Made by a program: the position numbers and the translations under genes
In this document: piece by piece, positions 1 through 22,740 of the stretch
Numbering within the stretch: position 1 is the stretch's first letter
How the letters are laid out: each line of letters opens with the position of its first letter
IMG/VR virus record: IMGVR_UViG_3300044633_001813
Span: 1-35,950 of that record
Length of the DNA stretch: 35,950 bases
Source of the DNA: a virus
Direction: 5' to 3' (one strand)
The notes under the pieces: model-generated
What the model was told of the DNA's origin: nothing
Database searches by the model: none
Seen by the model: the letters and a program-made list of their open reading frames with translations, nothing else

Positions 1-165
1 TCTCGGCCTGCGGAGCGACTGAATCGCTAGGACTGCCTCGTTCGTGATGGTCATCGTGCCGTTCTCCCGCTTCGCCACGGTCACGCGGTTCACGCCGAGC
101 ATGGCGGCAACCTCGGCTTGTGTGCCGAGGCGCTCGCGGGTGGCTTTGTAGTCTTCAGGTTTCAT
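1..165 (-). CDS. Xre-type helix-turn-helix regulator, 3' end cut off by window
   Basis: About 55 residues are visible, starting MKPEDYKATRERLGTQAEVA and running off the left edge. The stretch from residue 13 on has the order of an Xre/Cro HTH: a Q-AEVA-ML helix, a turn at GVN, a recognition helix RVTVAKRENG, then TITNEAVLAI. Such proteins bind operators as dimers and often act as phage or toxin-antitoxin regulators. The start ATG overlaps the stop of the upstream gene (ATGA), so the two are translationally coupled. The C-terminal part is unseen, so a Cro-like, antitoxin or general regulatory role cannot be separated. The HTH call is good; the role is inferred. Confidence 0.75.
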   Translation of the reverse strand, partial: MKPEDYKATRERLGTQAEVAAMLGVNRVTVAKRENGTMTITNEAVLAIQSLRRPR

Positions 166-524
166 GCTGCTTTCTTGAGGCATTCTTCCCACAGCTCCCG
201 ATTTGCGCAGACTGATGAGTAAGGTGTTGCCATCTTCATTTCGCCGCCTGCCTCACGATACAACCGGCGAGCTTTTGAGTTTCTCACGGCGATCATGTGC
301 TTCCATGCAATTTCATGCCCCTTAAGGTCTTCTTTAGTGATGCCAAAAGCTTTAGCTGGCTTGAGTGCGCAGATACAGCCGAAATGCTGAATCTCTCCGG
401 TTTCAGTGTCTTCAATCCAGACAACTTTTTGGAGGCCGGATTTACCGCAGCACATGCAAAAGCTTTCTTCGTCGTTGATTCCTTTAATCTTGAAGCGTTC
501 GTTCATGATTGGAGTGTGTAGCAT
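162..524 (-). CDS. Small Cys-rich (probable zinc-binding) protein, unknown function
   Basis: A 120-residue protein, or 114 if the second Met (MNERFKIKG, start at 506) is used. It has two cysteine clusters, CMCCGKSG near residue 23 and HFGCICALKP near residue 48. Their spacing suits a treble-clef or zinc-ribbon site. A basic helix (IAVRNSKARRLYREAGGEMK) follows. No family is recognised. It lies first in a two-gene leftward operon with the Xre-type regulator and overlaps that gene by 4 bases. Neither start has a clear Shine-Dalgarno. An inverted repeat spans the first start codon, which is one reason the second Met may be the real start. Confidence 0.6.
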   Translation of the reverse strand: MLHTPIMNERFKIKGINDEESFCMCCGKSGLQKVVWIEDTETGEIQHFGCICALKPAKAFGITKEDLKGHEIAWKHMIAVRNSKARRLYREAGGEMKMATPYSSVCANRELWEECLKKAA

Positions 525-541
525 AAAGCTACATTGCGCAA
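518..541. promoter_or_regulatory. Inverted repeat plus TTGCGCAA palindrome upstream of the leftward operon
   Basis: GTAGC-ATAAA-GCTAC (518-532) is a perfect 5-bp dyad with a 5-base loop. It abuts the 8-bp perfect palindrome TTGCGCAA (534-541). Both sit at the 5' end of the 162-524 gene. Near-copies of the second motif occur at 1264 and 1317 in the divergent control region. A repressor operator is inferred; only the palindromes are seen. Confidence 0.4.
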
Positions 542-627
542 GTCCTTATTTGAAGATTTTTCACCAACGTCAGAGAACACGGCGCTTCTGACCAACTCCG
601 CTTCGCTCCGTGGCAGAGCTTGGTCGT

Positions 628-1236
628 TCATTCCTCGCGGTGTTCCTGGGCGGCGTGGCAGCTGGGGATGGCATCGTGGCGGATGGTGTAGTGGCCGCCG
701 TGGCCTGGGCTGGGGCTGGCTTTGGATTCGGTGAGGGGCTCGGCCAGGAGGGCTATGGTGGGCTCTTGGCCGGGCCGTGGGTAGGTGGTGGGCTCTGGGC
801 CGGGCCGTGTGTAGGTGGTGGCGGTGACGGCTTCGGCGGAGGGGTCGTGCATGTATTTGTCGAGCCCCTGCCACATGCCCATGAACTCGGGATCTGTGCG
901 GGCGACGGCTTCCCAGCGGGCGGCAAGCTGCTGGTAGGTATCGGCCTGGGGCTGGCCGGCGGGGTCGATGGCCTCGATGCGAACGGTATCGGCGTGGCTG
1001 TCGGGAGTTTCATCGCGCAGGTAGGCGATGAGCAGGGTGGCGGCGGCGCTGCGGCTGCTCTGGCGCTCGATGGTGGGCAGTAGCTTGGTCATGGCATCGA
1101 GAGACACCGGGCGTTTGCCCATGCGGATCATGGAGAGCATGGAGGGATCAACACCGGCGGCGAGCGAGATCTGCCGCAAGCTGTGCTGCGGATTATCGGT
1201 GAACCAAGTGTTTAAAGCGGAGGTGAATCGTTTCAT
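628..1236 (-). CDS. HTH repressor-like protein (candidate lysogeny regulator)
   Basis: A 202-residue protein. Residues about 18-50 (LRQISLAAGVDPSMLSMIRM, then GKRPVSLDAM) have the order of a Xre-type HTH: a helix, a turn at GVD, a recognition helix and a following helix. The rest is a helical segment (about 55-135), then a Pro/Thr-rich linker with two 10-residue repeats (TYTRPGPEPT, TYPRPGQEPT) and a polar tail. No S24/LexA-type peptidase domain is visible, so RecA-triggered self-cleavage is not expected. It is transcribed leftward, divergent from the early operon that starts at 1326, as expected of a lambda-like immunity repressor. The function is inferred from fold and position; a Cro-like or accessory regulator is the main alternative. 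Confidence 0.65.
   Translation of the reverse strand: MKRFTSALNTWFTDNPQHSLRQISLAAGVDPSMLSMIRMGKRPVSLDAMTKLLPTIERQSSRSAAATLLIAYLRDETPDSHADTVRIEAIDPAGQPQADTYQQLAARWEAVARTDPEFMGMWQGLDKYMHDPSAEAVTATTYTRPGPEPTTYPRPGQEPTIALLAEPLTESKASPSPGHGGHYTIRHDAIPSCHAAQEHREE
761..820. repeat. Two 30-bp tandem repeats inside the repressor-like gene
   Basis: The two units, 761-790 and 791-820, match at about 28 of 30 bases. They are in frame and encode a 10-residue Pro/Thr repeat of type TYxRPGxEPT in the linker. Their number could change by slippage without breaking the frame. Confidence 0.8.
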
Positions 1237-1789: not shown

Positions 1790-2004
1790 CCTGCGGCGAA
1801 CTGGATCACAGGGATCTGCCCACCGTCACGGCGTATGAGATTTACATCGGCGCTGGCTTTGAGGCCGTGATCGGCTGGCCTTTGCCCAACGGGCTGCTGC
1901 CTGTGGGTGCGGCGAATCTGGGCGTGGTGATGGCGACCCCAGATGAGGTGGCTGCTTATCGTGATCTGTGTGCGGCAGAGAGGGCCGCGAATCCGGCGGG
2001 CTAA
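1786..2004 (+). CDS. Small early protein, unknown
   Basis: 72 residues from ATG 1786 (MTCGELDHRDLPTVTAYEIY). This start was chosen because AAGGGGGGAA lies at good spacing and the ATGA overlap couples it to the upstream gene; a longer reading from 1732 would overlap that gene widely. The middle is hydrophobic and Gly-rich (GAGFEAVIGWPLPNGLLPVG), the end a helix ATPDEVAAYRDLCAAERAAN. No family is recognised. Confidence 0.55.
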   Translation: MTCGELDHRDLPTVTAYEIYIGAGFEAVIGWPLPNGLLPVGAANLGVVMATPDEVAAYRDLCAAERAANPAG

Positions 2005-2024
2005 GCGCTGCGCCCCTTTTTTTT

Positions 2025-2324
2025 ATGACTACTGCTGCCCATAGCCCGAATACCTTACCGGCTCGCCGTCGTGGCCGGCCGCCTGGCGCGGTGATGCTGT
2101 TGACGCCTGCGCAGGTGGCGGAGCGGCTGAGCGTGCCGCTGAAAACGGTCTATGATTGGAGCTACAAGCCGTGCAGCCTCGATGGGCTGCCGCTACTGCC
2201 TGTGGTGAGGTTAGGACGCCGCGTGCGTGTGTCTGAGGCTGCGCTGGATGCTTTGCCTGGGCGTCTGGCCCATCGCGCCCCGGCCGCTTTTTCTTTTTTT
2301 TCTGGGGAGGATTCAAGCCTGTGA
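2025..2324 (+). CDS. Excisionase-like HTH protein with AT-hook-like motif
   Basis: 99 residues from ATG 2025. Residues 12-22 (PARRRGRPPGA) hold an RGRP core as in AT-hooks, which insert into the minor groove of AT-rich DNA. Residues 25-77 (LLTPAQVAERLSVPLKTVYD, then W, and later LGRRVRVSEAALDAL) fit the winged-helix HTH_17/excisionase family. Such proteins are recombination directionality factors or small transcription regulators. It sits early in the rightward operon, about 6 kb from the integrase and convergent with it, which would suit an Xis made on induction. A T9 run precedes the start and no Shine-Dalgarno is seen. Xis versus transcription factor is not settled. Confidence 0.65.
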   Translation: MTTAAHSPNTLPARRRGRPPGAVMLLTPAQVAERLSVPLKTVYDWSYKPCSLDGLPLLPVVRLGRRVRVSEAALDALPGRLAHRAPAAFSFFSGEDSSL

Positions 2325-4003: not shown

Positions 4004-4986
4004 TGCACAGCTACACCCGACATCTCGGCGATTACGCCAAAGACACCCGACACCTCACGCTGCTGGAGCATGGCGCATATAATGTGTTGATGGACTGGTG
4101 CTATGCCAGCGAGCGCGCTTTGCCCAATGACGAAGCCATGCTTTACCGCATCTGCGCAGCATTCACCAAGCCCGAGCAACTTGCAGTTATGAGCGTGCTT
4201 CAGCAGTTCTTTCAAGAGCAGCCCGACGGCTGGATTCAAAAACGCATCGAGCAGGAGCTGATGAAGGCGCACGAAAAACGCGGCAAAGCCAAAGATGCAG
4301 CACTTACCCGATGGAATGCAGACGCAATGCGAACGCATAGCGAAGGCAATGCAGACGCAATGCGAACGCATAGCGAAGGCAATGCAGACGCAATGCCTCG
4401 CGGGCGCGCACTCCGTAATCCTGTATCCTTATCCTTATCCTTATCCATACCCCCTACCCCCCGCCAGCGGGGGAAGTCAGGCAAGCTGACCGATCCCCTC
4501 TTTTCGGATGAAGTCCCTGAAGCCTACCGGGAACCGCTGAGCCGTTGGTTCTGCTACAAACGTGAGCTGCACAAGTCCTACACCCCGAGCGGCTGGGAGG
4601 CTTTGGTGAGACAGCAGCTTGCTTACCCGGCTGAGATCGTCGCCAGATCGGTGGATGCCTCCATGGCCTCATCCTGGCAGGGACTTTTTACGGACAAGGT
4701 GACGAACCCCATGACATCACCGATGGGTTTCAGCCCGCAAAAAAAAGAAGGGGGGGCGGTGAAGTCGTGGGCCGAGCGGCGATCTGAGGCGGATCAGGCG
4801 CAGGAGGATGAGCTTGCCACCCTGCCGCAGTTGCCGCGTGACGATCTGCCGCCGGAGTGGGACTGGCAAGGCGTGGCGGATCTGCTTTACGGCGCGAGCT
4901 GGGAAAGCTGGAGTGATGTGCCTGAAGATGCGCGCCGTGAACTGTCCGCCGAGTGGTCGAAAAAGGAAGGGGGGGCGCAGTCATGA
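4003..4986 (+). CDS. YdaU/DUF1376-type phage replication protein
   Basis: 327 residues. The N-terminus (MHSYTRHLGDYAKDTRHLTL, then LEHGAYNVLMDWCYASERAL) is typical of the DUF1376/YdaU family, found in phages next to the replicative helicase and thought to act like lambda O or a helicase loader. The family domain covers about residues 1-95, ending in helix RIEQELMKAHEKRGKAKDAA. Residues about 105-131 are the repeat NADAMRTHSEG, followed by a Ser-Leu repeat; both come from DNA tandem repeats. Residues about 165-245 form a second helical domain. An acidic tail ends in SKKEGGAQS. It overlaps the helicase gene by 4 bases. An A8-GAA-G7 tract at 4739-4756 precedes an in-frame GTG, a possible internal start. 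Replication role: family knowledge plus position. Confidence 0.8.
   Translation: MHSYTRHLGDYAKDTRHLTLLEHGAYNVLMDWCYASERALPNDEAMLYRICAAFTKPEQLAVMSVLQQFFQEQPDGWIQKRIEQELMKAHEKRGKAKDAALTRWNADAMRTHSEGNADAMRTHSEGNADAMPRGRALRNPVSLSLSLSIPPTPRQRGKSGKLTDPLFSDEVPEAYREPLSRWFCYKRELHKSYTPSGWEALVRQQLAYPAEIVARSVDASMASSWQGLFTDKVTNPMTSPMGFSPQKKEGGAVKSWAERRSEADQAQEDELATLPQLPRDDLPPEWDWQGVADLLYGASWESWSDVPEDARRELSAEWSKKEGGAQS
4315..4396. repeat. 33-bp iteron-like tandem repeats; candidate replication origin
   Basis: There are two identical 33-bp units (4315-4347, 4348-4380) and the first 16 bases of a third (4381-4396). Each full unit contains the perfect dyad ATGCG-AA-CGCAT (4327-4338 and 4360-4371). The repeats are in frame in the linker of the YdaU-type protein, just upstream of the helicase gene. 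In lambda the origin iterons lie inside the O initiator gene, so the position is suggestive. Origin function is inferred. Confidence 0.5.
4423..4446. repeat. TTATCC hexamer microsatellite
   Basis: Three perfect TTATCC units follow one GTATCC. They encode a Val-Ser-(Leu-Ser)3 run in the YdaU-type protein. The asymmetric pyrimidine/purine strands and the position about 25 bases after the 33-bp repeats could fit an unwinding or primer region. A simple slippage microsatellite is equally likely. Confidence 0.75.
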
Positions 4987-6470
4987 GCGACCCGATGATT
5001 CCATACAGCCGTGAGGCGGAGCAAGGGGTGCTTGGCGCCATGCTCAGCGACCCCATCAAGTATGCCGACGATGCTATTCGGCGATTGAGGGATGATCATT
5101 TTTACTGCTCGGACACCCGGACGCTGTTTGTGAAACTGCGGGACATGGCCGATGCCAGCCGCATCATCGAGCCGGTGAACGTGGTGAATTGGCTGCGTGA
5201 ACAAAACGAACTGGAGAATGTGACCGCCGCGTTTGTCACCGAACTGGCAACGGGCTACACCACACTGCTGGGATTTGACCAGTGGTGCGACACGCTCACG
5301 GATCGACTGGCCCGGAGAACCATCATCGCGGCAGCCCAGGAGAGTAAAACGCTGGCGATGGACATGAGCCGCTCGTGGAAGGAAGCCATGCAGGCCGCCG
5401 ACTCGGAGATGTCGCTGCTGCAAGTGCTGGAGCAGAGCAATCAAGCGGTGAGCATGGCCACCGTGATGAATGAGACGATTGAGGATCTGGATCAGGCAAT
5501 GAAAAACAAAGGCAAGATTCGCGGCGTGAAAACAGGGCTGCCGGATCTGGATCGCACGATTAATGGGCTGGAAGCGCCCGACCTATTTGTGATCGGTGCC
5601 CGCCCTGGCATGGGCAAGACGAACCTTCTGCTTCGGCTGATGGAAAGCATGACCTTCGCGATGCTTAACGAGCAGCAGGTGCCTACGCTGATGTTCTCCC
5701 TGGAGATGGGCCGGATGCAGGTCGGGCGCCGTGTGCTGTTTTCTGCCGCTGACGTGGAGCAGAGCAAGGGCAAGACCGGCTTCCTATCCAAAGACGACGA
5801 GGCAAACGTCAGCACGTCCGCGATGAAATGGCAGAAGACAAAGGTGTGGGTGGATGATACGCCTGAGCTGACTATTGCTGACATCCGCGCCCGCATTCGT
5901 GCGGCCAAACGGAAATGGGGCATCCGTGTGGTCATGATCGACTACATTCAGATCATCGAAGCCGTGACCAAGGCCGGCAAACAAGACGAGCGGCTGGGCA
6001 TCAAGGAAGTCGTGGGCGGGCTGAAGGCAGCGGCCAAGCAGTGTGATGTGATCATCATCGCGCTGGCTCAGGCATCGCGCGGCAGTGAAGACCAACCTGG
6101 TAAACGCCCCACCCTGCGCGACTTCGATGGTTCCAGCGCCATAGAAAAGTGGGCCGATTATGCCGCGTTTGTGCATCGCCCAAGCAAATTTATTCCTTGG
6201 GAACGGCTCAAGGAGAACCAACAGAACTACTACGGCAGCGAGGGTGCATATCTGGAAGCGGCGGAACTGCTGCTCGTGAAGTCGCGCCATAGCTCCGAGG
6301 CCGTGATTCCGCTGCGCTTCATCGCCCCACTGGCCCGCTTCGACCCCGCCACCGAGAAACTTTTTAGCAACAACTCCGCCGAACGACAGAAAGGTTACCA
6401 AAACCACGACGCCACCGGCCGGAAGAGTAAAGCCCAACAAGAAATGGATGAAGCTTTTGGAAATGACTGA
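4983..6470 (+). CDS. dnaB: Replicative DNA helicase, DnaB-like
   Basis: 495 residues from ATG 4983, about the usual DnaB length. The N-terminal domain begins with the typical SREAEQGVLGAMLSDP. The RecA-like ATPase core has Walker A GARPGMGKT (205-213), the SLEMGRMQV segment after it, Walker B VMIDYIQ (317-323, Asp320) and the later LAQASRGSEDQPGKRP. The tail is polar (KSKAQQEMDEAFGND). As a hexamer it would unwind DNA at the phage fork, loaded by the YdaU-type protein encoded directly upstream with a 4-base overlap. The start has a strong Shine-Dalgarno (AAAAAGGAAGGGGGGG). A longer reading from 4953 was rejected because the conserved start and ribosome site fit 4983. Confidence 0.93.
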   Translation: MSDPMIPYSREAEQGVLGAMLSDPIKYADDAIRRLRDDHFYCSDTRTLFVKLRDMADASRIIEPVNVVNWLREQNELENVTAAFVTELATGYTTLLGFDQWCDTLTDRLARRTIIAAAQESKTLAMDMSRSWKEAMQAADSEMSLLQVLEQSNQAVSMATVMNETIEDLDQAMKNKGKIRGVKTGLPDLDRTINGLEAPDLFVIGARPGMGKTNLLLRLMESMTFAMLNEQQVPTLMFSLEMGRMQVGRRVLFSAADVEQSKGKTGFLSKDDEANVSTSAMKWQKTKVWVDDTPELTIADIRARIRAAKRKWGIRVVMIDYIQIIEAVTKAGKQDERLGIKEVVGGLKAAAKQCDVIIIALAQASRGSEDQPGKRPTLRDFDGSSAIEKWADYAAFVHRPSKFIPWERLKENQQNYYGSEGAYLEAAELLLVKSRHSSEAVIPLRFIAPLARFDPATEKLFSNNSAERQKGYQNHDATGRKSKAQQEMDEAFGND

Positions 6471-7857: not shown

Positions 7858-8197
7858 CCAAAAGTCTGACAATGCCCAATCGCGGGTTGGCAGCGATGCC
7901 CTTGTTCGCCTTGGGGGTGGACAAGGCGCTTCTCATGCGGATCAAGCGCGTTCTCTTGGCCTAGTGGTCGGAGATGTGATAGTTGGCAAGGAATACTACG
8001 GCGAGGATGGCTGGAGTGAAGCTGAGCTAACGCTGCTCTGGATCGGCAAAGAAGTGTGCGTCTGGCGTCAGCGGTGGAGGAATGCTCATAGGCCCGACTT
8101 ATGGTATAACGGCGGCGAGCGACCAAACTGGAGCCTCACAAGCCGCGAGTGGTTCAAAAAGGCGAACAGTCAATTAAACCAACCCAAGTTGGATTAA
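7850..8197 (+). CDS. Small conserved-looking phage protein, unknown
   Basis: 115 residues. The first 35 are polar and low in complexity. The rest is a Trp-rich beta domain (VVGDVIVGKEYYGEDGWSEA, LTLLWIGKEVCVWRQRWRNA, then PNWSLTSREWFKKA). I recall similar short Trp-rich phage proteins near this position in early operons, but cannot name the family from sequence alone. It is the last intact gene of the rightward operon, 233 bases before the terminator. Confidence 0.55.
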   Translation: MCDQKSDNAQSRVGSDALVRLGGGQGASHADQARSLGLVVGDVIVGKEYYGEDGWSEAELTLLWIGKEVCVWRQRWRNAHRPDLWYNGGERPNWSLTSREWFKKANSQLNQPKLD

Positions 8198-8211
8198 TCG
8201 ACTTACCATAA

Positions 8212-8406
8212 AGCCAGCGCCCCACACCCAAACACGCTCCCGACAAAGGCCGCAAAACCTACCTTTCCCGCGTTTCTGCGCAGTGCCTCGCCGACTTCCA
8301 GACCATCGCCAAAGCCATCGCTGCGCCCGGCAAAGCCCCCAGCCTCGCCGATGCCATCGAGCACGCCGCCCGCACCCTCGCCAAGCAAATCCGCCCGAAA
8401 ATGTAA
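8212..8406 (+). pseudogene. Startless ORF remnant at the end of the early operon
   Basis: A 64-codon open stretch between an in-frame TAA (8209-8211) and TAA 8404-8406. It has no ATG, GTG or TTG. Third positions are mostly C or G, and the translation reads like a real helical protein (KTYLSRVSAQCLADFQTIAK, then PSLADAIEHAARTLAKQIRP). It ends just before the operon terminator. The likeliest reading is the 3' part of a gene that lost its start by deletion. A rare start codon is the alternative. Confidence 0.35.
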
Positions 8407-8430
8407 CACCCCGCGCCCCCAAAATTTCCA

Positions 8431-8456
8431 GCCGCCGGAACCCCCGGCGGCTTTTT
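8431..8456 (+). terminator. Rho-independent terminator of the early operon
   Basis: An 8-bp GC stem, GCCGCCGG (8431-8438) with CCGGCGGC (8444-8451), a 5-base loop, then TTTTT (8452-8456). It closes the rightward operon. On the other strand it is preceded by A5 and followed by a short T4, so it may also stop leftward integrase transcripts weakly. Confidence 0.85.
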
Positions 8457-8467
8457 CACGCCCTCAT

Positions 8468-8570
8468 CACTGCGACATGTCGCACCCCCGTAATCGGGGC
8501 ATTCCTGCCCCGGACAAACCGTGTCCCAAGCCGGACAAACCCTGTCCGGCACTGCGACATGTCGCACCCC
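8468..8570. repeat. Palindrome cluster between early terminator and integrase
   Basis: A 21-bp direct repeat (8468-8488, 8550-8570) is centred on the perfect 14-bp palindrome TGCGACATGTCGCA (8471-8484, 8553-8566). Between the copies lie CGGGGCA-ttcc-TGCCCCG (8495-8512) and two GGACA-N5-TGTCC dyads at 8512-8526 and 8533-8547, the second extended to a 7-bp stem. The second 21-bp copy ends on the integrase stop codon. No gene is seen. Two further dyads of the same type occur at 15684-15719. Confidence 0.85.
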
Positions 8571-9961
8571 TACCGCCGCAGCGCAGGCACCAGCCTGTCC
8601 TCCTTGGAGTATCGCCGCGCCATCTGCTCATCTACATGGCCCAGCCCCACCGATACCGCCGCCACCCCGCCAAATCTCCGCAGCGCCTGCGCCTTACGAT
8701 GCCGCAGAAGGTAAGCCACCTGCGTCCCCTGCACGCCACACTCGCGCAGCCACTCATTCAGCGCCCGGTGCATGTCCCCCTCCGCCGTCGGATGTTCACA
8801 GCCGAAAAGCGAGCGCGCATTCCCCAGCCCACGCAGCACCTCCACCGTCTCCACAGATACCGGCGTCACCACCTCATGCCCACCCTTCGCCGCCGGGATG
8901 CTCAGCAGCCCGCCAAATTCCCCCAGCTCCTCCACCGGCACACGCCATTCCTCCGCCATCCGACCACGCGCCGCCAGCATCTCCCCCGCATCCAGCACCC
9001 GCAGCGCACCCGGCACCAGCACGCGCAGCGTCCCCGGCCTCACCCCCGTTTCCTCACACACCCGGAAGAACGCCCACACCCGCGCATCATCCGCCCGCAG
9101 ATCCGCCAGCCGATCCTCCACCACCGCCATCACCTCGTCAGGAATCCCCTTGTGCCCCTTCGGTTTCGGCAGCTTAAACCGCACCTCCAGAAACGCCGAC
9201 AAATCAGGCAGCCGCAGCCCCTCAAGGATACGCTCCTGCGCATCCTTCCCAAAGATCGTGTTCACGTTCGTAAAGTATCCCAGGATCGTCGTATTCCACT
9301 CCGCCACCGTCCGCAGATCCAGCGCCGGGAGCGATCCCGCCGCCTTCATCCCCCGCAGCATCGCCCACCCATCCGCCGGCATATTCTTACCCGCGCCCAG
9401 CCCCAGCCATCCCCGGCGGCCCGCCTCCTGGCGCAGCTCCGCCCAATCCCGCTTGAGGCCTTTCGTTAAATCTGCCCACGTCACCGCCTCCAGCGAAATG
9501 CCCCGCGCCTGCATCAGCATGGATGCCAGCGAGTTCACCCGCGCCTGCCGATCCGCCGGACCACGCTTCAGATACAGCGCCAGCACCTCCTGCACCGAAG
9601 CAAACACCACCGGCGCCCGCATCTCCCGCAGCCGTTCCACCTCCCCGCGTTGCAGCATCGCCGTCTCCGTCATCAGCCACTCCTCCGCCCACATCGACAC
9701 CCTCCGCACGCACACACAGCTTGCCCGCTCCTTCGCCGGATTCCCCACCACCCCCGCGCACTTCTCACAAAGGGGGAATAACTTCGCCGAAACGCAGCGC
9801 GGCTTCATGCCCGGCATCGTAAAAGTCACCATCCAATTCGGCCCATATTCAGGCACCGCAGCGTCTCGCCACCCCCTGCGCACCACCTTTCCCTCCACAA
9901 TAAAGGGTTCCCGAGGGCGAAGCTGGCGCTTCAAAGAGAAAGATCCGAGGTATGTTTTCAT
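8570..9961 (-). CDS. int: Tyrosine-type site-specific integrase
   Basis: 463 residues from ATG 9961. The catalytic domain shows Arg I in EETGVRPGTLR (R308), box II as YLLRHR (R420, with the usual first His replaced by Tyr417), GLGH (H442) and the nucleophile in ARRYSK (Y451). This order is that of phage integrases, which recombine attP with attB. The N-terminal part carries CEKC and CVCV (C65, C68, C82, C84), a possible small zinc site, before the SAM-like core-binding domain (about 115-235). Longer starts (ATG 9994, TTG 10003) would add a short hydrophobic stretch and reach into the att arm, so 9961 is preferred. The attP-like core lies about 180 bases upstream, as usual. Confidence 0.9.
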   Translation of the reverse strand: MKTYLGSFSLKRQLRPREPFIVEGKVVRRGWRDAAVPEYGPNWMVTFTMPGMKPRCVSAKLFPLCEKCAGVVGNPAKERASCVCVRRVSMWAEEWLMTETAMLQRGEVERLREMRAPVVFASVQEVLALYLKRGPADRQARVNSLASMLMQARGISLEAVTWADLTKGLKRDWAELRQEAGRRGWLGLGAGKNMPADGWAMLRGMKAAGSLPALDLRTVAEWNTTILGYFTNVNTIFGKDAQERILEGLRLPDLSAFLEVRFKLPKPKGHKGIPDEVMAVVEDRLADLRADDARVWAFFRVCEETGVRPGTLRVLVPGALRVLDAGEMLAARGRMAEEWRVPVEELGEFGGLLSIPAAKGGHEVVTPVSVETVEVLRGLGNARSLFGCEHPTAEGDMHRALNEWLRECGVQGTQVAYLLRHRKAQALRRFGGVAAVSVGLGHVDEQMARRYSKEDRLVPALRR

Positions 9962-9990
9962 GGCAACTACCAAGACAACTACCCAGCCAG

Positions 9991-10020
9991 CCATCAGAAT
10001 CAATCAGAATCAGTCAGAAT
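9991..10020. repeat. Three 10-bp tandem repeats near int start
   Basis: The units are CCATCAGAAT, CAATCAGAAT and CAGTCAGAAT, at exactly one helical turn spacing, followed by CAAAAAG. They lie between the left arm and the core and overlap the longer possible integrase starts. Candidate binding sites for Xis or a bending protein, or the int promoter. Confidence 0.6.
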
Positions 10021-10587: not shown

Positions 10588-10899
10588 TCAAGGTCGGTTA
10601 TCCACCAGCGTCCCAGCCCGCCGCGCATCGAGCACGATGGCACATCCTGCGGCCACATGCCCCAGGTGATGCGCGCCACTCTCCGGGTCGATGTCCTCGC
10701 CGTCAATCAGGCAGTCAATGTGCCGACGCATCGCCGCCAGATAGGTCATGATCTCCACCCGATTCTCCCGCCAGTTCCAGGGGCCATATTTACGGGCACC
10801 GAGCGCCAGCGCCGCCGCCACCTCGCGGTTAAATACAGGTGGCAAAAGTTGCAGTTGCGGCTTCTGCGCACCCGCGGCGCCTTTGGGGTCCGTGCTCAC
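10588..10899 (-). CDS. dATP/dGTP diphosphohydrolase-like protein (DUF5664/MazG-like)
   Basis: 103 residues from GTG 10899, which overlaps the stop of the upstream giant gene. It shows the phage family pattern GARKYGPWNWR (34-44), a helix with AAMRRH (55-60) and GEDIDPESGAHHLGH (67-81). The Glu, Asp and His residues would place metal ions, as in all-alpha NTP pyrophosphatases. Relatives hydrolyse dATP and dGTP to the monophosphate and pyrophosphate. In 2-aminoadenine phages such enzymes help pool control, but no PurZ-like gene is visible here, so general nucleotide housekeeping is the safer reading. It is unusual to find it at the end of a structural operon. Confidence 0.75.
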   Translation of the reverse strand: MSTDPKGAAGAQKPQLQLLPPVFNREVAAALALGARKYGPWNWRENRVEIMTYLAAMRRHIDCLIDGEDIDPESGAHHLGHVAAGCAIVLDARRAGTLVDNRP

Positions 10900-13800
10900 T
10901 TCACCACCTCCGCCACGGCTCGCAGCTTGATCGCCTCCGCCTGCCGGTTGATTAGCCGTTGCACCGCCAGCCCATCGGGGTTTGTCAGCAGCGCATAGCC
11001 CTCGGGACTGCCCAGCCAGGCGCGATACCCATCGCCCACCTTCTTCTGGTAGCGCCATTCCGCATCCGCACCCATAGCCGCGATGGTCGTCCACGCGCCC
11101 GACTTCCACACCTTCCGGTTGGTTTCAGGCGTCGGCAGGGTAAACCCTCGCGCACTCAGACTGCCCAGCACCGCATGAGCCGGACCGCTTTCCGCATCCG
11201 TGTAGGCACGGCTCCAAGGCTTGCGATCCTGCTCGACAGCCACGCCCAGGATATTGATCTCAGGCCGGCCACCTGCCACACGCTGCCGCAGCACCGGCAC
11301 GTTGCGCAAAAACTCCTCCAGCACCGTCGCAGGCTTGTAACGTCGCGGATCGGCCAGCGCATCCAGATCCTTCGCCAGTGTCGGGATAAAGCCACCCGCA
11401 AAGTTGATTGGCATCTTCGCCATCTTCTCCACAAAAGCGTCCTCTGGATTCGTGCCAAACTTGCTCGCCCCCAGCAGATCCGCCAGCCCACGCATCGCGC
11501 TCACATCCTTTACCTGGAAAGCACCCACCGAGGCCGCCGCCAGCAAATGCCCGGCCATGCCCTCAGCCGCCCACTTCTCCGGGCGGAAACGCTGCCTGTC
11601 CTGCATGTGCGCCACACCGGCCAGCAGGCCAGCCGTCGGCCATTGCTTGTAGCTCACGCGCTGGACTTTATCGGGCGTGCGCTTCCAGAAAGTCAGCGGC
11701 TCAAAGCCAGCCGCGCGCCGCTGCTTCGCCTCCTCCGGTGTCAGATCCGTCCATGGCCCTTCCATGTGCCAGCCCTCCTCCTCGTCATCCTTGCCGAGAA
11801 ACATGGCCGCCACCGTCAGGCCCGCCATCAGGCTAAAAACATTCTTGCCCATCAAAAGCTGCCGCTGGCTCCGCGTCGCTTCCGTGCCCAGCAGAGCAGG
11901 AGAAAGCAACACCGTTCCCGGCACATAGCCCAGCATGTCATTGCCAAAGTTAGCACCGAAGCGGATGAACTTCGCCCCCATCATCGAGCGCATCGCCCCC
12001 GACATAAAAAGCATCAGCCCGCGCGCATACCGCCCCGCTGGACCATCGGCCCCACGCTCCTCCGCATAGGCTTGCAGCCCACGCTCCAGCGATCCCATGC
12101 CCGTATTCACCGCCCGATAAATCCCGCCGAACACCCCCGTCGGGTCATTCTGATATGCTGCCTGATCTCCCATGAACGCAGCCTCCATCCGCTCCTCCGG
12201 CCGTAGCTGCCCGTTCAGGATCTCCCGAGTCCGTGCCGCCACCGTCGCACGTTCCTGCGCCGTCGCAGGCATTGCCCCGCCCGTCACCTCACGCCGGGCT
12301 TGTGCCGCCGCCGCGTCACGCTCCGCCTGGCTTGCCGCCACCGTCTTGTAGAGTTCAGGATGCAGCGCCCGTGCCACCACCTTGGCCCCTGCCGTGGTCG
12401 CTGAGTTATTCAGATGATCCGCAGCCGCCATCAGTCGGCCCGTCCAGATCATCACCGGGGCAAAGCCATATTTCTCCATCGCATTCCCATCACGCCAGAG
12501 AGCCTCACCCAGAGGCACCGGGCGGAAGGTTGATTCACCCTCCAGCGCCTTCTTCAGATCCTCATTGAATCGCTTCAGGTAACTATAATCTCCCTTCGCC
12601 AGAATCTGCATGGCCTCTGGAAATGCCTGTTTCAGACCACGCCACCACTCCATCATGGACACCACCGCCGCCGCTCGATTTCCATTCTTCAGCGCCAGCA
12701 TCCCGCTCTGGATCAGTTGATTCCCAAAGCCATTGCTTACGCTCATGAACGTATCAAACTGCGTCCGCATCCCGCTCAGCACCGCCGCCACCCAATACTG
12801 ATTCAGCACCTCCGGCAGCCCCGTGCCCGTGGATTTCTGGATGCCATCCAGCAGCGCCGCCAGCTTCCGACTCCGCAGCACCCCTTCAGGCAGAGCATAG
12901 GCTTCCTCCGCCAGCTTCCGCAGTGCCAGCGCCTGCTGTGTCGTGATCTGCTTCAGCCCATATTCCGGCGCGATAGCCTCCCGGAACATCTCCGAGTTCA
13001 TCATCCCCAGATTGATCAGCCGGATCAGCTTTGGCAGTGCCTTCACCACCTTTGCCTTGTCCGCCGCAGCCTTCTCACCGATGCCCACGCGCTCCAGCTC
13101 ACGCAGGAAAACCTTCCTGCGTTCCTGCTGCCAGGCCTTGTCCAGTTCATTGGTCAAAGCCAGGCGTTCATCCTTTGTCAGACCCTTCAGCCGTTCATCC
13201 AGCATCAGCCGCCGATAAATCTCCCGCTGTCTTTCCTTCTGAGTCGAGGGCAGATCCATGAAAATATCCGCCCACTTCATGCCCGGATACAACTTCTTGC
13301 GCAGTGCATCCAGCATCCGCTTCAGGCTCGGATGCTTCTTCATCGCCCGCAGTTTTCGAGCTTCACGCAGTTGGCGCGCCACCTCAGATTCACCCGGCTG
13401 CACTTCCGCAGACTCCAGATCCGCCGCGAGTTCGGTCGATGCCTCACCCCCGGCTTTGTCCGCCGTCTCATTCACCTTCGTCGCCCCGCCCGTGGCACCG
13501 CCTTCATAACGCTTATCCATCACCGCATCCGCGCGATCAATGAGCATCCCCTCAGCCGCCAGGATCGGCGCATAGGGAGTCAGCTCCGAGTTCACCACCG
13601 ACCGCTGCCGCAGGTTCCGTCCCGCCTCTTGGGACAGCCAGCCCTGCCACACCTTCGAGATACGATGCCCCAGACTCCGCGCCTGCATCTGCACCACCTC
13701 ACTGCCCGACTTCATCATCTCCGTCGTCCGCTGGATCAGCAGCCCGGCCGCGTGCTGAGCCACATCCCCGGTCATGTCCGCAGGCAGGCGACCCGCCTCC

Positions 13801-16775
13801 ATGGCAGCAATCGCCTGCTCCATCGGCATCGAGTCCACCCAGGCCTCCGCCGCCGCCTTCACCGTCACATCCTCGCGCACCTGGTAGAGCCGCTCCTGCT
13901 CGTCCGGGCTGGCAAAGCGTGACTGAGTCTCCTTCATCTTCCCAGGTCCAGCCACAAAGCCACCCTGCGCCAGTTTCACCGCCGCTTTGGCAGGCAGCCC
14001 ATGCGCCTCGCGATAGTTCGCGTCATTGCCCGACGTGGCCTTGTGCCCCTTCACCGTGTAGCCTTCCGCCGTCAGCCAGTCCGCCACTTTCTGCCGCTCA
14101 GCTTCAGACACCGATGAAAGGCGGCCCCAGTAAACTGTCTGTGTCTGCGGATTGTAGCGGAAATCCTTCGCCCCATCCTCCTGCCCGGCACTCGCGATCT
14201 CACGGATGTTTGCATGGCTTGCCTGCTCCAGATTCGGCACCTTCACCGTGATCACCTCCCCATCGGCCACCGTGCCCAGCACACCCTTGCCAGCCGTCGG
14301 CCCCACATCCAGAGCGCCCGAGGCAGAGAGCCGCACCGGACCGCCCGCAGGCCGGCCCAGCCGCACATTCTTCGCCGCATCATTCGGCAGCGCCGCCACC
14401 ACCTGCTCCCAGATCCCTTGTAGATACTGCCGGATCGCCTGCCCGAAGCGGGTCACCATCGCCCGGCTCCAGTTCGCGAAGTCCGTGAAGCCATCCCGGA
14501 TCAGCGCCTCCGCTTCCGCGAGGATCTGCCCATTGACGAACCCCGCCGTCTTCCCTCCCGGCTCCAAGTTCTTGAAGCCAGTCGTTCGAGCAGGCTGAAC
14601 ACCAGCCAGTCCAGAAGTTTCATCAGCACCAGGAACACGCGCATCGGGAGGAGTAGCACCCGCTGCCTGATTGAAAAGCGCCATGTCACCCGCCGTGCTG
14701 TCCAGCATGTCAGGCGTGCCATACTCTCCGGCATTACCCTTCAGCGTGGCACTCTGCCGCTCAGCCAGATCGGCGCGCTGTTTGGCCCGTGCCTTCTCGG
14801 CAGCGAGTTCTTCCGCAGAGACTGACTGCATGGTGAAGGGATCTTCAAAGTCGGGCGCTGCCTGCTCGCGCTGCCGTGGCTGATACTCATCCACAAAGAC
14901 ACCGGCCCGAGTCGTCGGGTCCAGACTCAGCACACCGTAGCGCTTGCCGTCTTCGATCACCACGTTCGTCAGGTAGCCATCCTCATCATAGTCGATCTTC
15001 CGCACCACGGCCTTCTCGCCATTGATCAGCATTTCATCCCCTGGCGTCACCTCATCCAGAGCCACGAGCGTCTTGTCACGATCCCCGGCCTTGGCTTGAT
15101 CCTTCTCGAAGCTGCTCACCTGCTGCGCTTCTTGCTTCAGCGCCTTGTCACGCTGGCGAAACTGCACCCGGTATTGAGTGCGTGCATTGATCGTGCTTTG
15201 CACTTCATTCATCAGGTCATCCACGCTTTGAATGTTCGGAAAACCTGCTGCCTGTGCCATGCCCAGCAAAGTGTCGGGCGAATGACCGCGCTCAGTCGTC
15301 GCGATAAACTTCCGGTAATACATCGGAATGTTGTATCGCTCTTGCCAGTCGTAGCCAGCCTGTCCCTCCTGGGCACTGCCTTTCACTGCGACGTTCAGCG
15401 GGTTTTCATTGAGGAAATCCAGAATGTCATAGCTGCCCAGCGGGCTGTCAGGAATCACGGGGCGTTTGATTGATCCATTCCGCACCTGCATTCCGGCGAC
15501 ATGCCGCTGCCGTTCCATCTCCGCCGCATCGGCGATGGCCTGCGCGTTCGGACTCTTGGCGATGCCAAAGTCACGCAGCACATTGCCACCACCACCGGGC
15601 GCAGTCGCCCCCAGCGGATCATCTTGGAAGCCCTGCATCCGCCTGCCACCATCCGGCACATTCCCCAAGATCGGCGCACGTTGGGACACGGCTTGTCCGG
15701 TCTGGGACATCGGTTGTCCTACCCCTTCCGGCTCCAGGTCTGCCACATCCTCCGCCGTCAGCTCGCCCAGATCCTCGCTCACCGGCATAGGGGACGGGGT
15801 CGTAGGAGTCGCGGGCGCAGGCTTCCCGCTGGCCGCCAGTTGCAGCCCGGCGAACACCGTGCCACCTGCCGCGCCGCCGATGGCTTCCAGTTTGCGACGA
15901 TTCATAAACTCCGCATCCAGCGCTGGCAGCTTCATGCCTGTCACCGTGTAGCCTGGCCGCTTCGGGTCCGCCACAAACTGCCCCGCCGTGAAGGTCGCCG
16001 CATCTTGCAGCGTGCCCGAAATAGGTTCCTCGATGGCTTCACTCAGCACGCTCTTGCCCGCCTGCTTCAGCCCGGCCTTCACACCAGTTTGCAATGCCTC
16101 GGCCGCTGCCGTGCCACCGATACCGCCCAGCCGTTCCGTCAATGCCTCCGCACCCCCAAAGGCCGCACCCAGCGCCAGCCTGCCCGCCGGATTATCAATG
16201 CCGAGTTCCTTGGCCGTGTCGATCCCAGAGCCGACACCCATCGCACCTGAAAGCACGGTGGGAACCACCGTCAAAGCCGCACCTGTGCCCAGCACCGGAG
16301 CCGCCGCGCCCATCGTGCCCAGCATCGCCACCGCCTGCCCGGCACCGCCCCCGATAGTTTCCGCCACCGGGTTGGCCGGGTTCACCGGATACACCGCGCG
16401 CGATTCCTCGCGCACCGCATCGGTGAAGCCCGCCACGGCATCACCCGCATCACCCAGGCTCATGACCGTGGACACACCCGGCACAAAGCGCAGCACATTC
16501 CCCATCGGACCCAGCGCGCGACTCATCTCCGCCGTGCCCTTCGCCACACCGCCCACCGCATCCAGCGCCGTGCCGCCCAGATCACGGGCAAAGGCATTGC
16601 CCGCCGTGCCCACCACGCCCTGCTCGGCAATGCTTGGGTCCAGCCCCTCCCGCTGATAGAACTGCGTGTCCCAGGCCGATGTCACTTCGTCGATGTCATC
16701 CGCCGTCGGCTGATCGGTGAAGTCCACGTCAAAAGTCTGGCCTGTCTTCGTGCTGGTGATGCTGGCAATCGGCAT
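10896..16775 (-). CDS. Giant polyvalent / internal virion-type protein
   Basis: 1959 residues, the largest protein in the window. After a short polar start, residues about 45-330 are Gly/Ala-rich with amphipathic and hydrophobic helices (AVAMLGTMGAAAPVLGTGAA), as in many ejected or polyvalent phage proteins. A linker holds a heptad repeat GQPMSQT/GQAVSQR (353-366). A small beta domain lies near 570-620 (GDEMLINGEKAVVRKIDYDE), a segment typical of polyvalent proteins near 745-790 (GFTDFANWSRAMVTRFGQAI), an alpha/beta domain near 840-935, charged coiled helices near 1000-1330, and a long C-terminal region (about 1380-1890) resembling LPD38-type domains of phage polyvalent proteins. It probably enters the cell with the DNA, as T7 gp16 does. 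No protease or transglycosylase motif was identified with confidence. Family assignment is from memory of the type. Confidence 0.7.
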   Translation of the reverse strand: MPIASITSTKTGQTFDVDFTDQPTADDIDEVTSAWDTQFYQREGLDPSIAEQGVVGTAGNAFARDLGGTALDAVGGVAKGTAEMSRALGPMGNVLRFVPGVSTVMSLGDAGDAVAGFTDAVREESRAVYPVNPANPVAETIGGGAGQAVAMLGTMGAAAPVLGTGAALTVVPTVLSGAMGVGSGIDTAKELGIDNPAGRLALGAAFGGAEALTERLGGIGGTAAAEALQTGVKAGLKQAGKSVLSEAIEEPISGTLQDAATFTAGQFVADPKRPGYTVTGMKLPALDAEFMNRRKLEAIGGAAGGTVFAGLQLAASGKPAPATPTTPSPMPVSEDLGELTAEDVADLEPEGVGQPMSQTGQAVSQRAPILGNVPDGGRRMQGFQDDPLGATAPGGGGNVLRDFGIAKSPNAQAIADAAEMERQRHVAGMQVRNGSIKRPVIPDSPLGSYDILDFLNENPLNVAVKGSAQEGQAGYDWQERYNIPMYYRKFIATTERGHSPDTLLGMAQAAGFPNIQSVDDLMNEVQSTINARTQYRVQFRQRDKALKQEAQQVSSFEKDQAKAGDRDKTLVALDEVTPGDEMLINGEKAVVRKIDYDEDGYLTNVVIEDGKRYGVLSLDPTTRAGVFVDEYQPRQREQAAPDFEDPFTMQSVSAEELAAEKARAKQRADLAERQSATLKGNAGEYGTPDMLDSTAGDMALFNQAAGATPPDARVPGADETSGLAGVQPARTTGFKNLEPGGKTAGFVNGQILAEAEALIRDGFTDFANWSRAMVTRFGQAIRQYLQGIWEQVVAALPNDAAKNVRLGRPAGGPVRLSASGALDVGPTAGKGVLGTVADGEVITVKVPNLEQASHANIREIASAGQEDGAKDFRYNPQTQTVYWGRLSSVSEAERQKVADWLTAEGYTVKGHKATSGNDANYREAHGLPAKAAVKLAQGGFVAGPGKMKETQSRFASPDEQERLYQVREDVTVKAAAEAWVDSMPMEQAIAAMEAGRLPADMTGDVAQHAAGLLIQRTTEMMKSGSEVVQMQARSLGHRISKVWQGWLSQEAGRNLRQRSVVNSELTPYAPILAAEGMLIDRADAVMDKRYEGGATGGATKVNETADKAGGEASTELAADLESAEVQPGESEVARQLREARKLRAMKKHPSLKRMLDALRKKLYPGMKWADIFMDLPSTQKERQREIYRRLMLDERLKGLTKDERLALTNELDKAWQQERRKVFLRELERVGIGEKAAADKAKVVKALPKLIRLINLGMMNSEMFREAIAPEYGLKQITTQQALALRKLAEEAYALPEGVLRSRKLAALLDGIQKSTGTGLPEVLNQYWVAAVLSGMRTQFDTFMSVSNGFGNQLIQSGMLALKNGNRAAAVVSMMEWWRGLKQAFPEAMQILAKGDYSYLKRFNEDLKKALEGESTFRPVPLGEALWRDGNAMEKYGFAPVMIWTGRLMAAADHLNNSATTAGAKVVARALHPELYKTVAASQAERDAAAAQARREVTGGAMPATAQERATVAARTREILNGQLRPEERMEAAFMGDQAAYQNDPTGVFGGIYRAVNTGMGSLERGLQAYAEERGADGPAGRYARGLMLFMSGAMRSMMGAKFIRFGANFGNDMLGYVPGTVLLSPALLGTEATRSQRQLLMGKNVFSLMAGLTVAAMFLGKDDEEEGWHMEGPWTDLTPEEAKQRRAAGFEPLTFWKRTPDKVQRVSYKQWPTAGLLAGVAHMQDRQRFRPEKWAAEGMAGHLLAAASVGAFQVKDVSAMRGLADLLGASKFGTNPEDAFVEKMAKMPINFAGGFIPTLAKDLDALADPRRYKPATVLEEFLRNVPVLRQRVAGGRPEINILGVAVEQDRKPWSRAYTDAESGPAHAVLGSLSARGFTLPTPETNRKVWKSGAWTTIAAMGADAEWRYQKKVGDGYRAWLGSPEGYALLTNPDGLAVQRLINRQAEAIKLRAVAEVVK
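15684..15719. repeat. Two in-frame GGACA-N5-TGTCC dyads, 21-bp pitch
   Basis: GGACA-cggct-TGTCC (15684-15698) and GGACA-tcggt-TGTCC (15705-15719) lie in the giant gene and encode its GQxxSQx heptads. Geometry and pitch equal those of the pair at 8512-8547, and the flanking bases also match on the opposite strand. Confidence 0.85.
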
Positions 16776-16776: not shown

Positions 16777-18093
16777 TCATTTAAAAGTGTAAGTGTTCCC
16801 CGCCTTGGTCTTCACAGCCGCGCCCGCAGGGGCCGCCGCCGGAGCTGCTCCACCTGCTGCCGCTGCTTCCGCCGGAGAAATCACCCCGTCACCGTTGATG
16901 TCAGCCCGTTGCAGCCTCCACGCGCCCGTCTTCGGATCTTGCACCGGATACACCGCGCCCGTGATCTTCCCGCTGGGGTCTTTCTCATAGGTGAAGGAGG
17001 GAGCCTTGCCAGTCTGTGCCGTCTCTGCCTGGCCATACTGCACCCCGCCACGCACCGCGCCCGTCGGCACCAGACCGGCAGGCAATGGCGCATCCGCCTT
17101 CATCACCGGCAGCGTGCCCATCGCCTTATTGCCAGCAAAGGGAATGATGTAATCGGTGCCTTCAATGCGCTGCGTCGTCACCTTGGTAGGATCACCCTCC
17201 GCCGCACGCTGCGCCGCCTCCGCCTCCTGCCTGCGTTGAAACTCCAGCGCACTCTCACCGGCGCGTTGCTCGCTCTGCATTCGGAACATCTCCTGCTGCT
17301 GTCCAAAGTTGGTGGCATCACGCTGCTGCATGGCCTGCTGCTGAAGCTCGAACATGGTCATCTGATTCTGCTGCTGCTGGTCAAAGCGCTGGGCATCTGC
17401 CGCCTCGCGCATCTGCTGCATGGTCATCTGCTGGCCTTGCATCGCGTTCTGCTGCTCCATGCCGGCCAGTGCCAGGATGGCGCGCGGATCTCTCCGGCGT
17501 GCGGCACGTTCCAGCATCCGCATTCCCACCGGGGCGCGATCCCTCCCCACCGCGTAAGCGTTCGGATTGTTCGTGCCCACGCCCTGCTGGCTGTAACTCA
17601 TCGGGCCGCCACGGCTGGCAATGGAGGTGGTTGGCATCCCGCCGAGGGGCGAGCTGGGGGCCATGCCACCGAGAGGAGAGCTTGAAGTCATACCACCGAG
17701 AGGCGATCTTGGGGCCATGCCGCCGAGAGGAGACTGAGCAACGGGGGCGCGGAGAGCTGGGGCGGCAGGCATCATCATGCCAGTGGGAGATGGTGCGGCA
17801 GTTCGTCCAGTGATGTAAGGCATCTTCATTTCAGCAGGTGGCGCGCTCGCTCCAGGCTGGGGGGCCATGTAGCGCATCCCGCCATTGACGATCATCGGCT
17901 GCATCGGCCCCTGATCCTGGCGCATCTTCAGCGCATCCGCCGCCTGCTTCTCCACGCCCTGCATGGAAAACGAAGCCACAGGCACAGGCGGGCCTGCCAC
18001 CAGAGCGCGCTCGTTCTGAGCCTTGGCGACGGATGCCGCCATGAGTTCACTGGCGGGACGGCGGTATCTGGAATCAATGATGGGAGTTGGCAT
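16777..18093 (-). CDS. Virion-associated protein with Gln-rich coiled coil and EF-hand loop
   Basis: 438 residues. The N-terminal third is Pro/Met-rich and holds four 9-residue repeats of the type SPLGGMxxx (about 119-155). Residues about 205-300 are Gln-rich coiled coil (MQGQQMTMQQMREAADAQRF). The C-terminus carries DINGDGVISPAE (398-409), which matches every position of a 12-residue EF-hand calcium loop, then an Ala-rich tail. It is directly upstream of the giant polyvalent protein (1-base gap), so it is probably a partner ejection or internal virion protein; this is inferred from position. No named family is recognised. Confidence 0.65.
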   Translation of the reverse strand: MPTPIIDSRYRRPASELMAASVAKAQNERALVAGPPVPVASFSMQGVEKQAADALKMRQDQGPMQPMIVNGGMRYMAPQPGASAPPAEMKMPYITGRTAAPSPTGMMMPAAPALRAPVAQSPLGGMAPRSPLGGMTSSSPLGGMAPSSPLGGMPTTSIASRGGPMSYSQQGVGTNNPNAYAVGRDRAPVGMRMLERAARRRDPRAILALAGMEQQNAMQGQQMTMQQMREAADAQRFDQQQQNQMTMFELQQQAMQQRDATNFGQQQEMFRMQSEQRAGESALEFQRRQEAEAAQRAAEGDPTKVTTQRIEGTDYIIPFAGNKAMGTLPVMKADAPLPAGLVPTGAVRGGVQYGQAETAQTGKAPSFTYEKDPSGKITGAVYPVQDPKTGAWRLQRADINGDGVISPAEAAAAGGAAPAAAPAGAAVKTKAGNTYTFK

Positions 18094-18901: not shown

Positions 18902-19104
18902 GGTTCGTAGATCATGGGTTGATTCAGCCCTTCGCTGAGCGCCACGCCAGCCCCGGCCAAGATGCGCACGGTGCTCATGGCCTGGGCCACATACTGCGGC
19001 AGCCAGGCTTTCATCTGCTGAAACTGCACGTCTTCACCGCGTTCCCCCGCCAGCGCGGAAGGGAGCTGGTCAGGAGGTAAAAGCTCGGCAGGTGAGGAGG
19101 TCAT
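18898..19104 (-). CDS. Small late protein, unknown
   Basis: 68 residues, starting MTSSPAELLPPDQLPSALAG. A helix (VQFQQMKAWLPQYVAQAMST) leads into a Gly/Ala-rich, mildly hydrophobic segment (VRILAGAGVALSEG). This segment is too short and polar for a clear membrane anchor. Overlaps of 4 bases on both sides tie it to the giant surface-type protein gene upstream and the 59-residue gene downstream. No family is recognised. Confidence 0.55.
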   Translation of the reverse strand: MTSSPAELLPPDQLPSALAGERGEDVQFQQMKAWLPQYVAQAMSTVRILAGAGVALSEGLNQPMIYEP

Positions 19105-22100
19105 GCGGGTTGGAAAATGAGGGCACGTTTACCACCGCCCACCACGAGGTTGATGTCATCCCAGACGAGGCCGTAAGGATAGCTCAGCACGCTGGCACTG
19201 GCGCTGCCACCGGCCCACTCGGAGCCGCTGGTGAAGTTTGCCTGTCCCAGCACCGCATCTGCATTGGCACCGCTGCTGGTGGGGATGGCGTAATAAAGCA
19301 GGACGCGATGGTTATAGCTGTCCGCCACCGCCAGGATGCCCGCATCACTCACAGCCACATTGATGGGCGATTTCATGCCCGCCTGAGTCGTGGCACTGCT
19401 CACAGGCCCAAAGCTGGACTGGCCGATCACCACACTGGCGGAAGCTCCGTTGCTGGTGGGGATGGCGCTGAAGACCAGCACGCGATTGCTTGACACATCC
19501 GCCACCAGCATCTCCCCACTCGGCCCCACGCAGACACCCTGCGGATTGCTCATTGTCGATGCCGTGGAGCCTGAGGTGCGGGTGGTGAAGAGCGTCTGAC
19601 CCACCACCACATTGGCGGAGACACCGTTCGTCGTCGGCACCGTGTTCCAGATCATCACGCGATTGTTGAAAGCATCCGCCACCAGCAGCTTGCCACCGCT
19701 GGACACAAATACCCCCACGGGCAGGTATAGCTTGGCCGCCGTCACACCACTGGAGGAGCCCGTCATCGTCGTTTGACCGATCACGACCGCCGCTGCCTGT
19801 CCATTGCTGCTCGGTGCCGTGTAGATGAGGACGCGATTGTTCCCGCCATCCGCCACCACCAAATCAGACCCATTCCAGGCCACCCCATAGGGAGTGTTCA
19901 GCTTCGTGCTGCTCGTGCCCGCGCTGGTGTTTGTGAAGTTCGTTTGGCCGATCACCAGATCCGCAGCCGTGCCATTCGTCGTCGGCACACTGTTCCAGAT
20001 CAGCACGCGATGGCTCGTCGTATCCACCACCGCCAGCTTGCCGCCGCTGCTGATCGCCGAACCCGCCACGATCCCAGGCAGCACGCTCTGGCTGGCCGTC
20101 GTCACCTGATCATCCATGTCTGCCTGACCGATCACCGTGCTGGCGCTCTGGCCGGTCACCAACGCATCATCCGGCACACCCGTGCCGCTCAGGCTGATCG
20201 TATAGCTCTGCTTTGCCACCGTGGCGGCATTGCTCGTCACAGTCAGCGTCGCACTCTTGGTGCCGTTGCTGCTCGGGTTAAAGGTCACCACAAAGGTCGT
20301 GGTGCTGTCTGCCGCCACCGTGGCAGGCAGCGAGATGCCGCTCACCACAAAGGCCGCTGCATCCGTGCCGCTGGTGGCACAGCCTGACACTGTGAGATCA
20401 CTTGTGCCCGTGTTGCGGATCGTGAAAGTCTTCGCCGTGCTGCCGCCCGTGGTCAGCACATCACCGAAAGCCAGACTGCCACCATCGGCGATGACCGTTG
20501 GAGTCGGCTGCTCCACCTGAATCTCCGGCCCGGTGCCACCCGTGCCACCCACGTCAAAGGTGAAGGGGTTCTCATCCGCATCATCACTGGCCACGCTGAT
20601 CGTAGCCGTGCGCGCCCCCACAGCGCTAGGGTTGAAGGCGATGGTGAAGTCAGCGCTTCCCGCCGCCGCGATGGAGGAACTCACGCTCCCCAGGGTGAAG
20701 TCAGCGCTGTGGGTGCCGCTCTTGCTCAGCGCCACACTGCCCAGCGTCCCGGCGCCGCGATTGTAAATGGTGAATGTCTTCGTGCGTGTGGTCGCGCCTG
20801 CCTCATCCACCGTGCCAAAGTCATAGCTCGATCCCGCATCCACCAGGATGTTCCCCAGCGGATCACGAACCTCGATCTCACCCACGGCCACACCCGTGCC
20901 GGAGAGCGTGAGGTCGTAGGGACTCTCGTCCCGGTCCGTGTTCGTGATGCTCAGCGTTCCCGTGATCGTCCCCGCCGCTGTCGGCGTGAAGCGCACGTCA
21001 AAGGTCGTGCTGGCACTGCCTGCGATACTTTCCCCAGGTGCTGCCACCAGGGACCAGTTGTTATCCGCGCTCACCAGCGTCAGCGCCACGGTTAGATTGC
21101 CCGTGCCCGTGTTCTCAATCGTGATTGTGAAGTCCTGGCTTGATCCCGTGTTCACCGAACCAAAACTGATCGTGCTGCCATCCACATAGGAGGTGCCTGA
21201 ATACTTGACATTGATTTCGGGGTCTGTGGCCGTGCCGCTCAGCGCGATCACCAGAGGGCTGGCCGGGTCATCACTTGCCAGACTCAGCGAGGCCGTGCGG
21301 CTCCCCGTGGCTGTGGGCGTCCATGTCACGGTAAACTCCTCCTCACCTCCGAGTGCCGAGACGCTCGCAGGCAGCGTGCCAATAACAAACTCAGCATCAT
21401 TCGTCCCGCTCTTGCTGGCTGCAAGACTCTCCAGAGAGAGGAAACCAGTGTTCCGAATGGTCAGCGTCTTGGCATTCGCCACACCCACCGCCGTGCTGCT
21501 GAAGGCCAGCGCCGTGGTCACAGGCGTGGTGTCATCGTAAAGAGCCAGTTCACTCTGCGGCTCTGCCATAAACTGATCAATGTTCGAAGTCAGCGAGGAT
21601 CTGCGCAGCCGGGCAAAGTAAAGCTGGCCGCGTGTCATCGACGTGATCGTGTATTCCAGCGTGCCGCTTGATGCGACCGCCTGCCCAGACAGCAGCATCC
21701 CGCGCGTGAAGTCCGGCGACGTGCTCACATCCAGCACCGTGCCAGATCCGCCCACATCCCAGGTGACTTTCACGCTCGTGCTGCTCACCGCTATATGGCT
21801 CAGGTTCAGTCCTGTATCCAGCGTGCTCGGAGCATTCAGTGTCACATACCGGCTCAGATAGCCACCCAGGTAGGGCTGCACATCCACATCCAGGATGATC
21901 GTCGCCGGCCACATCACCGGATCTGTCGCCGGTTCCCGATACACAAAGCCCTGATCCGTGAACACAAAAGCCGGATGCAAGCAGGTCTCAATGGAGATGC
22001 TGAAACCTTGGGTGCCTTGGTAGCTGATTGGGCGCGGCAGCATCTTCGTTGGCTCCGGGATGTAGGGCGCGCTGCCACTGGCTGGCCAGGAAGGATCACC

Positions 22101-22736: not shown

Positions 22737-22740
22737 ATAA

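Follow-up and report, generated by a model that had tools for sequence, protein, structure and literature searches.

Paired GGACA-N5-TGTCC dyads in an intergenic cluster and inside a giant gene of a phage: candidate tandem operator-type sites

In lambda-type operators (OR1–OR3) adjacent palindromic sites lie about 20–25 bp apart, a spacing that suits dimers bound side by side. Palindromic DNA is also found inside open reading frames, as in the Rickettsia palindromic elements, REP sequences and PARCEL coding repeats (PMC2996958, PMC3733652). A literature search found no paper on the GGACA-N5-TGTCC motif that is the subject of this work (PMC2996958 and PMC9769523 were returned as word matches, with a different subject matter). 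The DNA analysed here, referred to as the window, is a linear virus record of 35,950 bases. Genes from position 1 to about 8200 lie mainly on the plus strand and include a DnaB helicase gene (4953–6470), whereas from 8570 onwards they are mostly on the minus strand and encode an integrase-like protein, a 1959-aa protein and an SU10-type major capsid protein. No cultured relative of the phage was found by DNA, nor by its capsid-like, integrase-like or giant protein. The window also carries a 1227-aa ORF (19101–22784, minus strand) with ASPM-SPD-2-Hydin-type Ig domains and NHL repeats, domains that are better known from cilia and large bacterial surface proteins, and tandem arrays within ORFs at 4315–4396 (33-bp unit, 2.5 perfect copies) and 17635–17733 (27-bp unit, 3.7 copies).

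A search of the whole window found four exact copies of the dyad, starting at 8512, 8533, 15684 and 15705, which form two pairs, each with a 21-bp step. The intergenic pair (8512–8547, plus strand; dyads 8512–8526 and 8533–8547) reads GGACAAACCGTGTCC-CAAGCC-GGACAAACCCTGTCC and the in-gene pair (15684–15719; dyads 15684–15698 and 15705–15719) reads GGACAACCGATGTCC-CAGACC-GGACAAGCCGTGTCC on the minus strand, confirming the claim of an earlier note on this DNA that the same 15-bp dyad occurs twice at a 21-bp step in two places. That note had also described similar bases around the dyads on opposite strands. When the second pair is reverse-complemented and laid against the first, 29 of the 36 bases are equal; the similarity is complete in the arms (20/20) and only partial in the spacers, where nine of 16 bases agree and seven differ. 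Random occurrence at equal density, which the same note had named as the finding that would count against it, is ruled out as the origin of the pairs: in 400 simulated windows that kept the dinucleotide composition, single dyads numbered 0.03 per window and pairs were absent. When all 5-base half-sites with spacers of 3–9 were considered, the two GGACA pairs were the sole same-half-site pairs in the window. Near-matches with up to two mismatches were not enriched there (nine observed against 17 expected), so the signal resides in the exact copies.

The first pair lies between convergent genes. On one side, 22 bp away, is the stop of a tyrosine-integrase-like ORF (8570–10003, minus strand; a weak Phage_integrase match), and on the other is an intrinsic-terminator-like hairpin with a T5 run (8430–8456, plus strand; −19.5 kcal/mol, z −4.2), beyond which is the start-less 3′ part of a small gene (8235–8406, plus strand). 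A palindrome, TGCGACATGTCGCA, flanks the cluster on the left (8471–8484) and on the right (8553–8566); it was considered as a host repeat and is absent from 74 Akkermansiaceae-type genomes. For the small gene no family was found and no fold was recognised by Pfam, NCBIfam, PDB sequence search or modelling. We had suspected a ribbon-helix-helix (RHH) regulator from its sequence; Pfam, NCBIfam and the PDB sequence search gave no support for this, nor did a single-sequence AlphaFold model (mean pLDDT 66, two helices and no strand). A close relative (L005) keeps the intergenic cluster with the dyads unchanged and has an intact version of the small gene (ATG start, 84 aa). Compared with L005, about 1.9 kb is missing from the window before 8235, which takes away the start of the small gene (8164–8238 area), and window positions 1–620 match a neighbouring L005 stretch in inverted orientation; the differences at 8164–8238 and 1–620 reflect either a rearrangement or an assembly join.

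Two dyads at a 21-bp step were found in 20 viral contigs and in 16 contigs of a 257-Gb genome collection, against about 0.2 expected by base count in the latter; the relatives were mostly retrieved via the dyad itself, and most loci come from metagenome contigs, for which the gene models are rough. GGACA pairs with gaps of 0–30 occurred in 103 viral contigs, compared with 12 contigs for the control half-site GGAGA and 43 for GAGCA, the matches to the latter falling mainly at gaps of 3, 12, 21 and 30, like coding repeats. After near-equal N5 copies had been dropped as likely fresh tandem duplications, the remaining, diverged pairs with gaps of 5–9 numbered 25 for GGACA, 19 for the sister half-site CGACA and none for either control, and diverged pairs at a 20–24 bp pitch were found only in the GACA-N5-TGTC class when compared with these two control half-sites. 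The spacer is strictly N5: when three arms were fixed and the other was free to vary, this arm agreed fully at N5 in 15 out of 59 distinct matches and had a single mismatch in eight more, the rest being mostly background. The phages have about one pair per genome, and neither a gene common to all pair flanks nor a protein family common to all the dyad-bearing phages examined was found. Related arrangements were noted elsewhere. In one phage family (about 25 freshwater-type contigs, L043–L123) dyads of the GGACAY-N3-RTGTCC type are set 33 bp apart from start to start (gap 18), close to [GT]ACCCC flanks; the region is either intergenic or one of small genes, and no known gene adjoins the dyads. 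Two contigs from Chloroflexi MAGs (L029 and L034) carry GGACAGGGTGTGTCCCG-type palindromic minisatellite arrays of variable spacing, unlike the phage pairs.

The genes beside the pairs, which recur in many unrelated phages, are strongly enriched for small DNA-binding regulators and point to a regulatory function for the class. Among 90 ORFs starting within 150 bp of diverged pairs there were matches to Arc (six), FitA-like RHH (five), winged HTH (six), HTH_17 (two) and sigma factor (one) families, counts which overlap between families and do not equal numbers of loci; at offset control positions on the same contigs none of 81 ORFs matched these families. In four loci (L016, L021, L063 and L092), with a fifth (L116) added later by profile, the dyads lie between two divergent Arc-type RHH genes, and in the loci searched strong matches to the Arc-type profile were confined to within 85 bp of the dyads. 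In L231, L245, L267 and L276 a CGACA pair precedes a RepL-like winged-helix gene by about 30 bp or less. In L151 and L031 the pair is followed after about 10 bp by the start of an HTH_17-type gene, in L174 after 28 bp, and L151 contains GGACAAACCGTGTCC, identical to the dyad at window position 8512. CGACA pairs with a 20-bp step also adjoin an ECF-type sigma factor gene in L240, L255 and L280 (the gene was tested in L240 only). Selection independent of the dyad was provided by a protein-led search, in which an Arc-type profile (A5) was run against 61 genomes from the family of a Paracoccus genome. The two strongest divergent Arc-type pairs outside the seed genome (G485 and G497) each have two exact dyads, at a 25-bp step, between the genes, whereas in remoter divergent pairs the palindromes differ in sequence and are alike in shape (e.g. 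GTGACA..TGTCAC and GTGGC-N5-GCCAC). Arc-type pairs with QFKL strands are accompanied by GGACA-N5-TGTCC and the remoter ones by other arms, which fits the view that the operator letters follow the protein.

From sequence and gene neighbourhood the class dyad is most likely a protein-binding site, and each window copy is probably a tandem pair of 15-bp operator-type sites, although we regard both copies as candidates. One dimer of a DNA-binding protein would occupy each dyad; with the arms one helical turn apart and the dyads two turns apart, neighbouring dimers would face the same way and could bind together. The paired dyads have a fixed arm spacing and are conserved at the DNA level, as expected of an operator whatever the fold of its protein. 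Against this reading, the window copies are not placed ahead of gene starts, one being in a convergent intergenic region and the other about 350 codons into a gene, whereas members of the class do lie at gene starts; furthermore regulators of several unrelated folds adjoin the one dyad, which a single binder does not explain. The proposal in the earlier note that these are binding sites of one dimeric protein is supported for the class, by gene neighbourhood and the protein-led search, while for the two window copies it is a suggestion from sequence: a protein may bind them, the same protein may serve both, and its binding may regulate transcription or the integrase region. A profile search of the window detected no Arc-type protein. 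An excisionase-family-like (HTH_17) ORF (1968–2321, plus strand), identified in the Pfam tally and picked out by its own protein motif, is a possible binder by analogy with L151, L174 and L031. There is also an XRE-like ORF (631–1236, minus strand), which has no exact dyad nearby. As the DNA dyad is tied to likely regulators for the class, the recognition code is open to test.

The second pair lies within a linker of the 1959-aa ORF (10896–16775, minus strand), a giant gene of late type, where it is in frame and encodes GQPMSQTGQAVS. A relative (G005/L010) with 13 genes in common with the window carries the pair in the homologous giant gene. The conserved stretch PIL(G/S)NVPD follows the pair in the window (PILGNVPD) and precedes it in L010 (PILSNVPD), a shift of about 20 codons, so that conservation in this relative applies to the presence of the in-gene pair and not to its position. 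The stretch GQxVSxxGQxVSE recurs in linkers of other giant phage proteins, several of them Pro/Ala-rich. A scan for the peptide GQxVSxxGQxVS with third codon positions free returned 19 contigs, and in eight distinct dyad-bearing matches the codons were GGA in 16 of 16 units, GTG in 16 of 16 and TCC in 13 of 16; matches with other codons were either near-identical tandem repeats or scattered single cases in about the number that chance would give. The coding copies are thus held at the DNA level and not as a peptide heptad. Binding at the in-gene pairs, if it occurs, would mean that several phage lineages carry regulatory sites inside protein linkers, where ordinary annotation misses them. A related idea, rather unlikely in our judgement, is that many unrelated phages carry a site bound by a conserved protein, and that in giant late genes this site is part of the coding sequence, is kept at the DNA level and acts in cis far from promoters, for example as a road-block, loop anchor or regulator decoy.

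The shifted position bears on the best-surviving rival to the operator reading, which the earlier note had raised as a mobile palindromic element: a small element of the Rickettsia palindromic element or REP kind that inserted downstream of the integrase gene and also into the linker of the giant gene, where it kept the frame. Position in homologous genes does differ, as seen in a single pair of homologues (window and L010), and the recurrence of the GQxVSxxGQxVSE stretch in the linkers of other giant proteins also speaks for it. Dispersal of many copies in host chromosomes, which the note expected of such an element, was not seen, since only one of 388 Verrucomicrobiota genomes and one of 75 in the Akkermansiaceae-type family had the pair, each already known, although these groups may not include the host of the window phage. 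The low number of pairs per phage, the arms remaining exact while the spacers diverge, and the failure to find a terminal structure or partner enzyme also count against it. Low copy number and near absence from host genomes thus weaken the mobile reading, and the shifted position keeps it alive as an unlikely one.

We consider it less probable still that the pairs are accessory sites for site-specific recombination by the integrase (sites of an attP arm or for an excisionase), the in-gene copy being a bystander. In the window, L009, L012, L019 and L013 a gene for a tyrosine integrase or a serine recombinase lies no more than about 250 bp from a pair, and the HTH_17 genes adjoining the pairs in L151, L174 and L031 are excisionase-like, but most pairs are away from integrases and the in-gene copies are far from one. 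A search of the window for a tRNA gene as att site found none. Close to dyads and integrase in L009 (about 6540) and L012 (about 1200) there is a tRNA-3′-end-like stretch, in which ARAGORN detected no whole tRNA and which is likely the att site.

RNA hairpins or a bidirectional terminator between the convergent genes would account for the closed multibranched fold predicted for 8462–8572 on both strands (z −9.8 and −7.0) next to the ordinary terminator. Such z values are nevertheless expected, as two identical self-complementary repeats must pair, there is no T-run 3′ of the dyads, and the predicted fold of the in-gene copy is no more stable than that of shuffled sequence (z 0.0 and 0.4), so that this explanation is very improbable. 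The 21-bp step does equal seven codons, as the earlier note pointed out, and several giant proteins contain the pair in frame, but a peptide heptad GQxVSxx selected in the protein is scarcely credible and is refuted as the main cause by the third-codon-position scan: the heptad arises as a side effect of the DNA sequence, because the codons stay GGA/GTG/TCC when left free and gaps indivisible by three are as frequent across the class as those divisible by it, and in addition intergenic copies exist and the coding copies of L006 and L024 use another frame.

Set beside the described systems, the window pairs differ from Rickettsia palindromic elements, REP sequences and PARCEL repeats in having one or two copies per genome and a far shorter unit, with no 25-aa amphipathic repeat and no dispersal in host chromosomes. 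They resemble lambda-type OR1–OR3 in their adjacent palindromic sites and differ in that the window copies have no divergent promoter pair, the XRE-like gene lying elsewhere. The Arc/Mnt-type RHH phage operators are like them in consisting of short dyads repeated at about a two-turn pitch; unlike such operators, the window copies lie away from gene starts in a genome with no recognisable Arc-type gene, whereas in L016, L021, L063, L092, L116, G485 and G497 the same GGACA-N5-TGTCC dyad is found between divergent Arc-type genes.
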